A stretch of 64,000 nt of DNA from Roseithermus sacchariphilus (GTDB taxonomy: Bacteria > Bacteroidota > Rhodothermia > Rhodothermales > MEBIC09517), in contig CP030158.1 in assembly GCA_003285105.1 (NCBI GenBank), forward strand, positions 4,016,449 through 4,080,448, written 5' to 3'. The notes below the pieces were generated by a model. The model ran no database searches, had not been told where the DNA came from, and saw only the letters and a program-made list of their open reading frames with translations. Shown piece after piece: positions 18,575 to 24,477 of this stretch. Both the position numbers and the translations under genes were made by a program. The first letter of the stretch is position 1; each line of letters starts with the position of its first letter.

Positions 18575-19294
18575 ATGCAGGCCCCCCGGATCCTTCTGGT
18601 CGAAGACGATGCGGAACTGAGCGCGCTCGTGGCCGGACGGCTGCGAGAATCCGGCTACGAGGTGGAGACGGCCGCCACCGGCCCGGCGGCCCTGGCGCAC
18701 GCCTCCGCCCACCCGCCGGACCTCGTCCTGCTCGACGTGATGCTGCCGGAGATGGACGGCCTGGAGGTCTGCCGTCGGCTCCGGGCCGCCTATCCGTTGC
18801 TCTACATCATCATGCTCACCGCCCGCACCGCCGAGCTGGACCGGGTAGTCGGGCTGGAGGTGGGCGCCGACGACTACGTCACCAAGCCCTTCAGCCTGCA
18901 AGAGCTGGTGGCGCGGGTGCGAGCGGCCTTCCGCCGCATCCGGCTCACGGCCGAGCAGGCCTGCCCGGGCAGCGACCCGGACGCCGTCATCGACGTCGCC
19001 GGGCTGCACATCGACCCCGTACGCCGGGACGTCCGCCTTCACGGCCAGCCCGTGCACCTGACCGTCCGCGAGTTCGACCTGCTGCTGTTCCTCGCCCGCA
19101 ACCCGGACCGCCCGTTCACCCGCACCCAGATCCTGGATCAGGTCTGGGACATCCAGTATGAGGGCTATGACCGCACGGTGGACTCGCACGTGCAGCGGCT
19201 GCGCGCCAAAATCGAGGAGGACCCCGGCAACCCCCGCTTCATCAAGACGGTGTGGGGCGTCGGCTACAAGTTCCAGTCGGAGCCGGAGGCATGA
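18575..19294 (+). CDS. OmpR/PhoB-type response regulator
   Basis: The 239-residue protein has a receiver domain (residues 1-118) with the acidic pair D11/D12, phospho-acceptor D54 (LVLLDVMLPEMDGLE), T82 and K104 (DDYVTKPFSLQELVAR). It then has a winged-helix DNA-binding domain (about 140-235) with VHLTVREFDLLLFLARNPDRPFTR and DRTVDSHVQRLRAKIE. Phosphorylation by the adjacent histidine kinase should control DNA binding. The gene overlaps the kinase by 4 bp (ATGA), so the pair is translationally coupled. Confidence 0.95.
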   Translation: MQAPRILLVEDDAELSALVAGRLRESGYEVETAATGPAALAHASAHPPDLVLLDVMLPEMDGLEVCRRLRAAYPLLYIIMLTARTAELDRVVGLEVGADDYVTKPFSLQELVARVRAAFRRIRLTAEQACPGSDPDAVIDVAGLHIDPVRRDVRLHGQPVHLTVREFDLLLFLARNPDRPFTRTQILDQVWDIQYEGYDRTVDSHVQRLRAKIEEDPGNPRFIKTVWGVGYKFQSEPEA

Positions 19295-20865
19295 CCGGCG
19301 GGGGTGAGGCGCGGCGGCCGACGCCGGAGCCGCCGGAGACGCCGGCGACCCCGGCGGGCGGAGCGCCGGAGGCCACGCGGGCGCGTCCGGACCGCTGGCA
19401 TTCCGTGTTCTGGAAGGTGGCCGGCGTGCTCGTCGGCGTGCAGGTGGCAACGGGGCTGCTGGCCGTCGGGCTGAGCGCGTGGTTCGCGCTGGACCGGGGG
19501 CTGGATCTGGCCGCCAACAGCCTGCGCCTCCGCCTGGACGACCTGGCCGAGGAGATCGAGCAGCGCGCCGCCCCGTTGGACGACGGCCTCGCCGAGCTGC
19601 CGCCCCTGCTGGACCTCGACCTCGCCCGCCGCTTCCCGGACCCCATCTACCTGCTCGACGCGGACGGCACCGTGCTGCGGGTCGTCCTCCCGGACCCGGA
19701 CGAGTTCCCGGAGGCGCGTCCGGCCCCGGCGGACGCCTCGCCCCCGCCCGGCCTGGACAGCCTCCTGGCCGCCGGCGACGTGGTCGTCCGGCTGGATCCC
19801 ACCGCGCCGGGCGGGACGTGGGCGCTGGCGCCCGTCTACGCCCCGGACGGGCTGCTCGTGGGGGGGCTGCTCGTGCAGCCGCTCACCAACGCCCTGGCAC
19901 GGGAGCTGGCCGGCACGCGGACAGCCTTCGCCCGCGCCATGATCGCCGTGGCCCTCCTGGCCGTGGTCCTGGCGCTGCTGCTGGGGTCGATCTTCACGGA
20001 TCGGCTGGTCCGGCCGCTGCGGCGGATGACGGCGCGGGTGGAGCGCATCGGCGCCGGGGACTACGGCACGCGGCTGCCGGCGGACGGCCGCGACGAGTTC
20101 GGCCGCCTGGCCGCCGCCATCAACCGCATGGCCGCCGAGGTGGAGCAGAGCATGGCCGCGCTGCGCGAGACGGACCGGCTCCGCCGCCAGCTGATCGCCA
20201 ACGTGGGGCACGACCTGCGGACGCCGCTGGCGGCGTTGCAGGGCTATCTGGAGGAGGCCGAACGCCACCTCGCCTCCGGCCGGGCGGACGCCGCCCGGGA
20301 GGCCCTGGCGACGGCCGCCCGGCAGGGGCAGTACCTCCACCGGCTCGTCTCGGACCTGTTCGAGCTGAGCCAGCTGGACCAGGTCCCGGCCCCGCTGCAC
20401 CGCGAGCCGATCCCGCTCGCCGAGCTGCTCACCGACGCCGCCCGCGCGCACCGTGCCGCCTTCGAACAGGCCGGCATCCGGTTCGTGCTGGACCTGCCTC
20501 CGGGCCTGCCCCTCCTCGAAGCCGACGGCGTCCGCCTGCTGCGGGTGCTGGACAACCTGCTCGCCAACGCGCGCCGCCACACCCCGCCCGGGGGAACCGT
20601 CCGCCTCCGCGCCACCGCCGAGCCCGGCCGGGTCCACATCGACGTGATCGACACGGGCGAGGGGCTGACGCCGGAGGAGCAGGCACACGTCTTCGAGCGC
20701 TATTACCGCGGACGCCACGCACGCACCCGCGGCGCCGGCGGCACCGGCCTCGGCCTCGCCATCAGCCACGCCATCGCCCGCGCCCACGGCGGCGACCTGT
20801 CCGTGACCAGCACACCGGGGGCCGGCAGCACCTTCCGCCTGACGCTGCCCCGGCAGGAAGGGTGA
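19291..20865 (+). CDS. Membrane sensor histidine kinase
   Basis: The 524-residue partner of the upstream regulator has a Pro-rich N-terminus, TM1 (about residues 44-66), an extracytoplasmic sensor of about 150 residues, TM2 (about 212-236) and a HAMP domain (TDRLVRPLRRMTARVERIGAGDY). HisKA follows with H307 in NVGHDLRTPLAALQGYLE. The HATPase domain shows the N box DNLLANARRHTP, G1 DTGEGLT, the F box VFERYY and G2 GGTGLGLAIS. The signal is unknown. The 4-bp ATGA overlap with the response regulator fixes the start. Confidence 0.95.
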   Translation: MTGGGEARRPTPEPPETPATPAGGAPEATRARPDRWHSVFWKVAGVLVGVQVATGLLAVGLSAWFALDRGLDLAANSLRLRLDDLAEEIEQRAAPLDDGLAELPPLLDLDLARRFPDPIYLLDADGTVLRVVLPDPDEFPEARPAPADASPPPGLDSLLAAGDVVVRLDPTAPGGTWALAPVYAPDGLLVGGLLVQPLTNALARELAGTRTAFARAMIAVALLAVVLALLLGSIFTDRLVRPLRRMTARVERIGAGDYGTRLPADGRDEFGRLAAAINRMAAEVEQSMAALRETDRLRRQLIANVGHDLRTPLAALQGYLEEAERHLASGRADAAREALATAARQGQYLHRLVSDLFELSQLDQVPAPLHREPIPLAELLTDAARAHRAAFEQAGIRFVLDLPPGLPLLEADGVRLLRVLDNLLANARRHTPPGGTVRLRATAEPGRVHIDVIDTGEGLTPEEQAHVFERYYRGRHARTRGAGGTGLGLAISHAIARAHGGDLSVTSTPGAGSTFRLTLPRQEG

Positions 20866-21014: not shown

Positions 21015-21878
21015 ATGCCTTATTCCGCCGAGATCAGCCGGCAGTCTCCCACGGCGTTTCTGTTTCTGCTGGACCAGTCGGCCTCGATGCAGGAGTCGTT
21101 CGGGGGGGCGAAGCAGAAAGGCGACGCCGCCCCCAGCAAGGCCCGCGTGCTGGCCGACGTGGTCAACCGGCTCTTGCAGAATCTCATCCTCCGCTGTGCC
21201 AAGGAAGACGGGGTGCGCGACTACTTCCACGTCGGCGTCATCGGCTACGGCGACCGCGTACAGCCGCTGCTGACGCCGGCCGAGGGCTTCGAGCAGCCCG
21301 GGGATCTGATCCCGATCAGCCACCTGGCCGAGCGACCGCTGCGCCTCGAAGAGCGGCTCACCTCCGTGCCCGACGGGCGGGGCGGCCGCGTGGAGCGGCG
21401 CGTCAAGGTGCCGGTCTGGTTCGACCCGCACGCCCGGAACGGCACGCCGATGTGCCAGGCGCTGGACCTCGCCGCCGCCACCGTCCGCCGGTGGATCGAC
21501 GCGCACCCGCACGGGTTTCCGCCCATCGTCGTCAACGTCACCGACGGCGAGGCCACCGACGGCGACCCGCTGAAGTACGCCCAGCAGCTTCGCTCCTTCG
21601 CCACCGACGACGGCGAGGTGCTGCTGTTCAACGTCCACCTCTCCAGCGTCGACGAGCCGGCCGTGGAGTTGCCGGACTCGCCGGCGGAGTTGCCGGACGA
21701 CGCCTACGCCCTCCAGCTCTTCCAGATGTCGAGCCTCCTGCCGTTCACCATGCGCGCCGCTGCCGAGCAGGAGGGCTATCGCATCACGATGGACACGCGC
21801 GGCTTCATCTTCAACGCCAGCCCGGCGGCGCTCGTGCGGTTTCTGGAGATCGGAACGCGGCCGAGCAACCTGCGATGA
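21015..21878 (+). CDS. von Willebrand factor A domain protein (YegL/TerY-like)
   Basis: The 287-residue cytosolic vWA protein has an intact metal-binding MIDAS: D20-x-S22-x-S24 (LLDQSASMQ), a Thr in RNGTPMCQALDLA, and an Asp in VNVTDGEATDGDP. An insert of about 50 residues (PLLTPAEGFEQPGD...RRVKVPVWFD) sits between the first strands, as in TerY/YegL proteins. It is the first gene of a three-gene unit and overlaps the phosphatase gene by 4 bp (ATGA). In the E. coli yegL-yegK-yegI set and the TerY-type triads, a vWA protein, a PP2C phosphatase and a kinase are encoded together. The role of the vWA partner is unknown. Confidence 0.85.
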   Translation: MPYSAEISRQSPTAFLFLLDQSASMQESFGGAKQKGDAAPSKARVLADVVNRLLQNLILRCAKEDGVRDYFHVGVIGYGDRVQPLLTPAEGFEQPGDLIPISHLAERPLRLEERLTSVPDGRGGRVERRVKVPVWFDPHARNGTPMCQALDLAAATVRRWIDAHPHGFPPIVVNVTDGEATDGDPLKYAQQLRSFATDDGEVLLFNVHLSSVDEPAVELPDSPAELPDDAYALQLFQMSSLLPFTMRAAAEQEGYRITMDTRGFIFNASPAALVRFLEIGTRPSNLR

Positions 21879-22591
21879 CGCCGCAGATCCGCACCTTCCG
21901 GCTACCGAAGGCCGGCCACGGCGAGGACGAGTACGAGGACGCCTGGGCGGTGTCCTCTTCGCCGCTGCGCGCCGCGGTGGCCGACGGAGCGACCGAGTCG
22001 GCCTTTGCGCGGGCCTGGGCGGAGCAGCTCGTCCGGGGCGCCGTCGCACACGGCGTCACCGGCACCGGGGCGCTCGCAGCCGTCCTCCCCACCTGGCAGG
22101 CCGCCTGGGCCCGCGCCGTCGCGGACCGCCTGCCGGCGCTGCCCTGGTACGCCGCCGCCAAAGCCGAGCAGGGCGCCTTCGCCGCGCTGCTCAGCCTCGC
22201 CGTCGCCCCGGAGGGCACCTGGCAGGCCCTGGCGGTGGGCGACTGCTGCCTGCTGCACCTGCGGGACGCCGCGCTCGTCACGGCCTGGCCGCTCGACGAC
22301 CCGGCGGCGTTCTCCCACCGGCCGGCGCTGCTGCCCAGCCGCGAGGCCGGCCCCGCGGCGCCCGTCGAGACGACGGAGGGCACCTGGCACCCCGGCGATG
22401 CCTTCCTGCTCGTCACCGACGCCCTCGCCGCCTGGCTGCTGCGCTCCGACCCCGCCGCCCCGCTCGGCTGGACGGACGCCGACTTCCGCCGGTACGTCGA
22501 CGCCGCCCGCGCCGACGGCACCCTCCGCAACGACGACGTCACGCTCGTGCGGCTGTGCCTGCCCCCAGCACGGGCTCCCCGAGCGCGGTGA
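21875..22591 (+). CDS. PP2C-like serine/threonine phosphatase (YegK-like)
   Basis: The 238-residue product carries the metal-binding pattern of PP2C phosphatases in compact form: GHGEDEYEDAWAV (D22), AAVADGATES (D37, G38), a central LAVGDCCLLHLRD strand, a late DAFLLVTDALAAWLL (the Asp of the usual SDG motif) and NDDVTLVRL near the C-terminus. It is shorter and more divergent than canonical Stp enzymes, as is E. coli YegK. It would be expected to reverse phosphorylation by the next gene's kinase. Its ATGA overlap with the vWA gene implies coupled translation. Confidence 0.82.
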   Translation: MTPQIRTFRLPKAGHGEDEYEDAWAVSSSPLRAAVADGATESAFARAWAEQLVRGAVAHGVTGTGALAAVLPTWQAAWARAVADRLPALPWYAAAKAEQGAFAALLSLAVAPEGTWQALAVGDCCLLHLRDAALVTAWPLDDPAAFSHRPALLPSREAGPAAPVETTEGTWHPGDAFLLVTDALAAWLLRSDPAAPLGWTDADFRRYVDAARADGTLRNDDVTLVRLCLPPARAPRAR

Positions 22592-22623
22592 ACAACCCGA
22601 CCCTCGACCTTCGACCCTCGACC

Positions 22624-24477
22624 ATGCGTTATCCCACGCCCGGCGATTATCAGGACGCTCTGCAGGTTCCACAGGTCGCCTTCACCGACCCGACCTTGCA
22701 GCAGGCCGAACTGGAGACGACGGCGCTGGGGCTGCCGCGGGTCATCACGGGCGCCTTCGCGGCGGTGTTTCAGGCCCGCACGCGCACCCGGTGCTGGGCC
22801 GTCAAGTGCTTCCTGACCGAGGTTCGGGACCAGGCGGCGCGCTACGAGGCCATCGCCCGGCACCTGCGGGAGGCCGCACTGCCCTACACCGTGGCCTTCG
22901 ACTACCAGCCGGCCGGCATCCGGGTGGACGGGCAGACGTGGCCGCTGCTCAAGATGGCCTGGGTGGAGGGGACGCCGCTCAACGCGTTCGTGGCCGCGCA
23001 CCGGGCGACGCCGGAGGTGCTGGACGAACTGGCCGCCCGCTGGCGGCGGATGCTGGCCGACCTCGACGCCGCCGGCATCGCACACGGGGATCTCCAGCAC
23101 GGCAACGTGCTCGTCGCCGGCGAACCCGGGGACCTGCAACTGCGGCTGGTGGATTATGATACGATGTATGTGCCGGCCCTGGCCGGCCGCAAGAGCCCGG
23201 AGGTGGGTCATCGCAACTTCCAGCACCCGGACCGGGACGAGGGCGACTTCGGCCCCTACCTGGACCGCTTCGCCGGGCTGGCCGTCTACGTGGCGCTGCG
23301 GGCCTGCCGGCAGGATCCGGCGCTGTGGGCGCGCTACGACACCGGCGAGAACCTGCTCTTCCGCGCGGCCGACTTCTTCGACCCCGATGCCTCTCCCCTG
23401 ATGCAGGACCTCGCCCGGCTCGACGCCCTGGCGCCGCTCGTCGCCGCGCTGCGGCAGGCCTGCTACCTGGAGCCCGAGCGGGTCCCCACCCTGGAGGCGG
23501 TGCTGGAGGGGAACGGCCCGGCGACGCCGGGCGGGCTGCCGCTGCGGCGACTCCAGCGCCGACGTGCCGCCCGGCCGCCCCGCCGACCGGCCCGGCGCCC
23601 CCTGGCGGATCGGCTGTTCGCGCCGGCTCTGGTCGTGCTCGCTGCGGCCGCCCTGGCCTTCGGCGCGCTGGGGTGGACCCTCCCCCTGCTCGCTGCCCTC
23701 GGGCTCGGCGGGGTGCTGATGGGCCTGAGCGTGCACCGCTACCGCCGGCTCCCGGTCGTGCGCCGCCGCCATCGCCTGCGCCGCGAGGTGCACTACATCG
23801 ACCGCACCATCGACCGGCTGCGCCAGGAGATCGAGCGCCTCCAGCACGAACGCACCTCCTTCGTCCACCGCACGGACACCCTGCGGGCCGAACGGCTGGC
23901 CGAACTGCGCGACGAACGGCTGGCCCATCACCTGAAACACCACTTCGTCGGCACCGCCTCCTCGTTCGACGGCATCACCCACAAGGTCGTCGTGCGGCTG
24001 AAAGCCGCCGGCATCCGGACGGCCTACCAGGCGACCCCGGAGCGGCTGGCTGCCGTGAAAGGCATCAGCGACGAGAGCCGTGCGCGCGTGGGGCTGTGGC
24101 GGGCCGCCCTGGCCGCGGAGGTGCAGGACGACCTGCCCGAGGCCCTCTCCCCGGCCGAGGAACGCCGCTTCCAGCGCCGCATCCACCAACACCTGTCCGC
24201 CCTCGACGAGGAGATCGAGCGGCTCCGGGAGAAGATCCGCGTGCAGGACGTCGAGCGCCGGCAGGTGCTGGAACGCGCCTCGGCCCTGCCGGCGGTGACC
24301 TACCCCGGCTACCTCGGCTACCTGCTGCGCCTGCGCGCACTCCCGGCCCTGCACCCGCCCCGCACGGCCCCGACGCCCTCCCCACCACAGCCTACCGAGC
24401 CGCAGCCCACGCCATCCCCCACACCCGAACCCCCACCCACCCGTCCCTGGTGGGAAACCCACCCGCAGCCCGAGTAG
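22624..24477 (+). CDS. Hanks-like protein kinase with membrane segment, coiled coil and HhH domain (YegI-like)
   Basis: The 617-residue protein has an N-terminal kinase fold: K61 in CWAVKCFL, a catalytic loop HGDLQHGNVLV (D156, N161) and DYDTMYVP (D177/D179) in place of the usual DFG. After a basic linker come one or two hydrophobic segments (about 332-370), a charged coiled coil (about 385-440) and a helix-hairpin-helix-like stretch (about 447-495; VVVRLKAAGIRTA...AAVKGISDESRARV). A second coiled coil and a Pro/Thr-rich tail follow. This matches E. coli YegI, a Hanks-type kinase with a C-terminal HhH. It follows the phosphatase by 32 bp. The HhH hints at nucleic-acid contact; substrates are unknown. 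Confidence 0.85.
   Translation: MRYPTPGDYQDALQVPQVAFTDPTLQQAELETTALGLPRVITGAFAAVFQARTRTRCWAVKCFLTEVRDQAARYEAIARHLREAALPYTVAFDYQPAGIRVDGQTWPLLKMAWVEGTPLNAFVAAHRATPEVLDELAARWRRMLADLDAAGIAHGDLQHGNVLVAGEPGDLQLRLVDYDTMYVPALAGRKSPEVGHRNFQHPDRDEGDFGPYLDRFAGLAVYVALRACRQDPALWARYDTGENLLFRAADFFDPDASPLMQDLARLDALAPLVAALRQACYLEPERVPTLEAVLEGNGPATPGGLPLRRLQRRRAARPPRRPARRPLADRLFAPALVVLAAAALAFGALGWTLPLLAALGLGGVLMGLSVHRYRRLPVVRRRHRLRREVHYIDRTIDRLRQEIERLQHERTSFVHRTDTLRAERLAELRDERLAHHLKHHFVGTASSFDGITHKVVVRLKAAGIRTAYQATPERLAAVKGISDESRARVGLWRAALAAEVQDDLPEALSPAEERRFQRRIHQHLSALDEEIERLREKIRVQDVERRQVLERASALPAVTYPGYLGYLLRLRALPALHPPRTAPTPSPPQPTEPQPTPSPTPEPPPTRPWWETHPQPE

Follow-up and report, generated by a model that had tools for sequence, protein, structure and literature searches.

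The 64,000 nt stretch of the Roseithermus sacchariphilus genome analyzed here (contig CP030158.1, forward-strand positions 4,016,449 to 4,080,448; "the window" below) includes three adjacent genes, at 21015-24477, for a vWA protein, a PP2C-type phosphatase, and a protein kinase. This triad is probably a chromosomally fixed, membrane-tethered phospho-switch, a variant of the TerY-P system; we put the probability of this reading at roughly 0.6. It draws on the genes themselves and their family, the intact active-site motifs of their products, the predicted C-terminal architecture of the kinase, and the complete co-retention of the three genes within the order Rhodothermales.

The triad and its family

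The three genes are, in window coordinates:

21015..21878, + strand: TerY-type vWA protein, 287 amino acids; intact metal ion-dependent adhesion site (MIDAS), D20-x-S22-x-S24, T144, and D177; full-length match to PADLOC TerY, E 1.1e-95
21875..22591, + strand: PP2C-type phosphatase, 238 amino acids; metal-ligand aspartates intact; Pfam PP2C_2 above cut-off at 1.3e-8; PADLOC TerY-P PP2C 6.7e-30, residues 10-228
22624..24477, + strand: Ser/Thr-type kinase, predicted to be membrane-anchored, 617 amino acids; PADLOC STK_OB 9.1e-85, residues 1-298

All three open reading frames (ORFs) are real; profile matches on the order of 1e-95, 7e-30, and 9e-85 rule out chance ORFs. Their coordinates bear out the arrangement given in a first-pass annotation of the window: an ATGA overlap between the vWA and PP2C genes (21875-21878), and a 32 bp gap between the PP2C and kinase genes. 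The kinase start was taken as the ATG at 22624 rather than a GTG upstream (22555) because the N-terminus is conserved in relatives.

The annotation also likened the set to TerY-type triads. This is strongly supported, since all three proteins match PADLOC TerY-P models and their co-occurrence in relatives is complete (below). General libraries barely see the kinase (Pfam Pkinase, E 0.0054). The MIDAS residues, correctly noted in the annotation as intact, are invariant in 13 aligned vWA sequences, as are the PP2C acidic residues (D22, D37, D182, and D220/D221) in 24 sequences and the kinase catalytic loop HGDLQHGN with its DYD motif in 23. DYD in place of DFG had been singled out as a feature of the kinase; it is present, but it is the norm for TerY-P-type kinases and thus a family trait rather than an oddity. 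The same HGDLQHGN and DYD are common to TerY-P-type kinases of Calothrix, Streptomyces, and Acaryochloris, while those of one other genome of the order (G150) have HGDLSDGN with DYD or DFD.

The C-terminal arm of the kinase

The STK_OB match stops at position 298 of 562 for the window kinase; for an OB-type kinase from a Calothrix plasmid, the alignment continues to 537. No C-terminal OB-fold was found on the window kinase, with the match ending at 298 and the model of the C-terminal arm all-helical. There is also no C-terminal zinc ribbon, since residues 299-617 contain no cysteines. The order past residue 298 is instead a variable linker, a hydrophobic hairpin, a helix, a helix-hairpin-helix-like (HhH) region, a second helix, and a Pro-rich tail. 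The hydrophobic segments, coiled coils, and HhH-like region reported in the annotation are thus seen by hydropathy and in an AlphaFold2 (AF2) model, for which confidence is given below as the predicted local distance difference test (pLDDT):

22624..23517, + strand: kinase domain, TerY-P type, residues 1-298; K61, HGDLQHGN at 154-161, DYD at 177-179, GHRNxQHPDR at 195-204
23602..23745, + strand: hydrophobic helical hairpin, residues 327-374; Arg-rich flanks on both sides in the window protein; two helices in AF2, pLDDT about 60-68
23752..23934, + strand: coiled-coil helix 1, residues 377-437; AF2 pLDDT 78-93
23947..24120, + strand: HhH-like domain, residues 442-499; weak HHH_5 match, E 0.18; AF2 pLDDT about 90
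24151..24282, + strand: coiled-coil helix 2, residues 510-553; placed by AF2 as returning along helix 1
24352..24456, + strand: Pro-rich disordered tail, 31% identical, ending in an invariant Trp-Trp (W609-W610, 23/23 sequences)

The hairpin, found by hydropathy in all 23 sequences, is a predicted membrane anchor that would leave both ends of the protein in the cytosol. Modeled alone (AF2, from two sequences), the arm has a mean pLDDT of 89.7, and the model suggests a coiled-coil hairpin tipped by the HhH. A Foldseek search with the arm matched an HhH-sized piece of ~82 residues to RAD51-family chains with probabilities of 0.93-0.96 and E-values that are not significant; VIA-align Z values for the arm (best 11.4) lie in the range for generic long helices and prove no more than a coiled-coil hairpin; and a fold search with the full-length kinase model returned only kinases, at weak scores. 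In a sample of 99 genomes of the order, the arm occurs solely on the triad kinase (29/99). As a separate observation, the Trp-Trp (24448-24453) lies near the end of an otherwise fast-evolving tail and resembles a short docking motif.

Relationship to E. coli YegL-PphC-YegI

The annotation drew a parallel to E. coli yegL-yegK-yegI. Comparison with the K-12 proteins YegL, PphC (YegK), and YegI upholds this for the overall architecture and the HhH region, but not for the subgroups of the kinase and phosphatase, nor clearly for that of the vWA protein. Both sets have the same three domain types in the same gene order, although in E. coli K-12 pphC and yegI are separated by yegJ, and both kinases continue into a hairpin, a coiled coil, and an HhH, with the hydrophobic hairpin ahead of the HhH visible by hydropathy in each. 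The HhH regions are detectably similar (hhalign E 2.6e-6, probability 88.6), and the BLASTP match of the window kinase to YegI (E 4e-5) reaches back to residue 353. The kinase domains, however, belong to different groups: STK_OB, at 9e-85 for the window kinase, gives no YegI match at E≤1, and a phmmer search with the window kinase domain recovered all the TerY-P kinases in the test set and missed YegI. The annotation had offered placement of the kinase in the YegI group as a check on its proposal, and the kinase does not fall there; by these profile comparisons, membership in the YegL-PphC-YegI group is refuted for the kinase domain. By sequence, YegK is likewise not a close relative of the window PP2C, and YegL does not appear to be one of the window vWA, with only remote similarity: PphC and the window phosphatase both match Pfam PP2C_2 but align with an hhalign probability of only 0.7%, and the latter does not classify as a PphC-type phosphatase; YegL and the window vWA are marginally similar (28.7%, E 6e-4). 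The triad is therefore very unlikely to belong to the YegL-PphC-YegI group proper, notwithstanding the shared domain types and the similar HhH region.

Distribution and inheritance

The vWA gene is present in 31 of the 99 genomes, and PP2C and TerY-P-type kinase genes accompany it in all 31/31, including one with a kinase truncated at the end of a contig (G219) and one whose kinase has a different C-terminus (G150). None of the 68 vWA-less genomes has a TerY-P-type kinase (best E 1.6e-6, generic). Co-occurrence of the three genes in relatives, which the annotation had also named as a check, is thus complete. Related genomes are not independent counts, but within at least three families (f4, f7, and f39) genomes differ in having or lacking the three genes as a set. 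The triad is found in 7/7 genomes of a further family (f2) and in all of f7 but one. A phylum sample of 135 genomes outside the order gave no match, and a single scan of genome contigs returned only two loci.

On the whole the gene trees reflect the families: f2 clusters, as does most of f7, and two f7 genomes (G210 and G232) are placed elsewhere in the kinase tree. Pairwise distances correlate for kinase and vWA (r 0.84) and less well with PP2C (0.64 and 0.52), all computed without a control gene set. Mean identities are 79% for vWA, 46% for PP2C, and 51% for the kinase. Across the window-type triads of the order, vWA identity is 71-84%. The vWA is better conserved than the linked DNA polymerase III delta-prime (57-66%) and PSP1-domain (72-73%) genes.

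The plasmid, phage, and viral-contig collections searched yielded no window-type copies, the only triads in them being two distant cyanobacterial ones. Scans of viral contigs with queries A1 and A2, of plasmids with the C-terminal arm, and of phages with the vWA gave no matches at all. Two apparent irregularities were set aside. A "split kinase" in G189 and G199, with residues 1-353 and the C-terminus on separate contigs, is most likely an assembly break, as the kinase pieces run to contig ends; each partial vWA piece of G157 likewise has its beginning or its end at the edge of a contig.

Genomic neighborhood

Many relatives have the triad after delta-prime, PSP1-domain, and/or TPR genes, with a Cpn10-like gene following it. 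The window genome differs: there the triad is flanked on one side by a two-component system and on the other by a pair consisting of a pyridine-nucleotide-oxidoreductase-like gene and a pyruvate:ferredoxin oxidoreductase gene. Two genomes retain the set without linkage: in G182 the vWA adjoins delta-prime/TPR genes and the PP2C-kinase pair is elsewhere, in G175 the pair adjoins the Cpn10-like gene and it is the vWA that is elsewhere, and both keep all three genes. In Rhodothermus-like genomes, an HTH-ImmA/IrrE protein and a 434-amino-acid protein of no known kind are encoded between PP2C and kinase (L035:9146-12114, and at the same place in L032). TerD (PF02342) has no match in the window genome; other Ter families were not searched genome-wide.

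The two-component system (18575-20865) consists of an OmpR-type regulator and a HAMP histidine kinase and directly precedes the triad, as the annotation had it. The triad could conceivably be an output branch of this system, being adjacent, on the same strand, and about 150 bp away, but orthologues of the regulator and histidine kinase are beside the triad in none of the relatives examined, and we consider such a connection improbable.

Function

TerY-P is active against T7-like phages (PMC7699616) and shields P. aeruginosa from Autographiviridae (PMC10889362), and its OB-fold form has been described as a stand-alone defense system (PMC11090510). Because TerY-P is anti-phage in other systems, a defense role for the window triad is, by analogy, a serious rival: the HhH arm could stand in for the OB-fold and detect either a phage protein or foreign nucleic acid. 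OB-fold and HhH are both able to bind nucleic acid, the three families are those of anti-phage TerY-P, PP2C and kinase diverge quickly, and the operon of Rhodothermus-like relatives includes the HTH-ImmA/IrrE and accompanying genes described above. Against this, retention is family-wide and largely vertical, at housekeeping positions; the vWA is more conserved than its delta-prime and PSP1 neighbors; the triad is missing from the plasmid, phage, and viral collections, the two distant cyanobacterial triads excepted; and no defense genes were recognized among the immediate neighbors scanned. Near-universal presence in two families, the highly conserved vWA, the housekeeping neighborhoods, and absence from mobile-element collections favor a cellular (housekeeping) function, and defense on the anti-phage model is unlikely.

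As a cellular phospho-switch, the triad might work as follows. The kinase would be anchored by its membrane hairpin, with the catalytic domain and the coiled-coil/HhH arm both on the cytoplasmic side. The arm may sense or dock a ligand, be it a protein partner or nucleic acid, and drive kinase autophosphorylation and phosphorylation of targets, which the PP2C would reverse. This cycle is modeled on E. coli: PMC13232886, citing Rajagopalan et al., describes YegI as a membrane-bound autophosphorylating kinase that PphC dephosphorylates. The MIDAS vWA could serve as a metal-dependent adaptor joining kinase, phosphatase, and target.

Several findings weigh against parts of this proposal. The kinase part of the full-length AF2 model is poor, with pLDDT mostly under 50. 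The HhH hairpins are degenerate (as the HHH_5 score indicates), so nucleic-acid binding by the arm is a guess. The beta-3 (VAIK) lysine, K61 (22804-22806), is Arg in 7/23 sequences; beyond the variant, Arg also takes its place in four of the five TerY-P-type kinases compared (Calothrix, Acaryochloris, and two of G150; Streptomyces has Lys), so catalytic activity should not be assumed family-wide. Finally, the rapid evolution of PP2C and kinase would fit a defense role too.

This type of triad is already known; the joining of a TerY-P kinase domain to a YegI-like HhH arm with a membrane anchor appears to be a new combination. No description of it was found in the literature examined, though Anantharaman et al. 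(2012) may list one. Most of what is known of TerY-P concerns its anti-phage action and its partnership with Ter or CoCoNuT systems. Largely vertical inheritance, retention of the full set even where scattered, and a probable membrane anchor suggest an everyday cellular job for the same switch, and the common C-terminal HhH region links the poorly understood YegI kinase of E. coli to TerY-P. Tentatively, and with considerable doubt, TerY-P might be seen as a modular phospho-switch with an exchangeable kinase sensor arm: the HhH-tipped, membrane-anchored arm shared with YegI would be carried by two kinase groups, and the triad would be a core cellular regulator in Rhodothermales, from or alongside which anti-phage TerY-P arose. 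The role of the triad would be directly testable if relatives in the order prove genetically tractable.

Comparison with other TerY-P triads

A second kind of TerY triad occurs in the order, in G150 and G157 (L041, P0009). It shares the vWA, PP2C, and kinase-domain families with the window triad, and its kinase is probably also membrane-anchored, but through just one hydrophobic segment, after which comes a domain expected to lie outside the cytoplasm, with no HhH arm. At L041:5242-10737 it adjoins a YfbK-type vWA protein. Both kinds appear to be present in G157; its assembly is 83% complete in 560 contigs, and one of the two triads (L040/L043) could in principle be a contaminant. A further C-terminal type is found in a triad on an Acaryochloris conjugative plasmid (L097:5748-10388); its kinase includes a hydrophobic segment, and its long C-terminus shows no recognized domain.

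The TerY-P modules of type II and III-A CoCoNuTs (PMC11090510) are likewise vWA-PP2C-kinase triads, but their kinase carries a zinc ribbon, which the window kinase does not, and no helicase or HEPN partners are among the genes scanned near the window triad.

With the OB-fold TerY-P triad (PADLOC TerY/PP2C/STK_OB), credited to Gao et al. (2020) in PMC11090510 and PMC7699616, the window triad shares the three protein families, the vWA-PP2C-kinase order, and the kinase-domain subgroup with HGDLQHGN and DYD. The validated defense role is that of the OB-fold triad; the window variant is kept on the chromosome by largely vertical descent, and its kinase is predicted to have a membrane hairpin, coiled coils, and an HhH where the other has its OB-fold.

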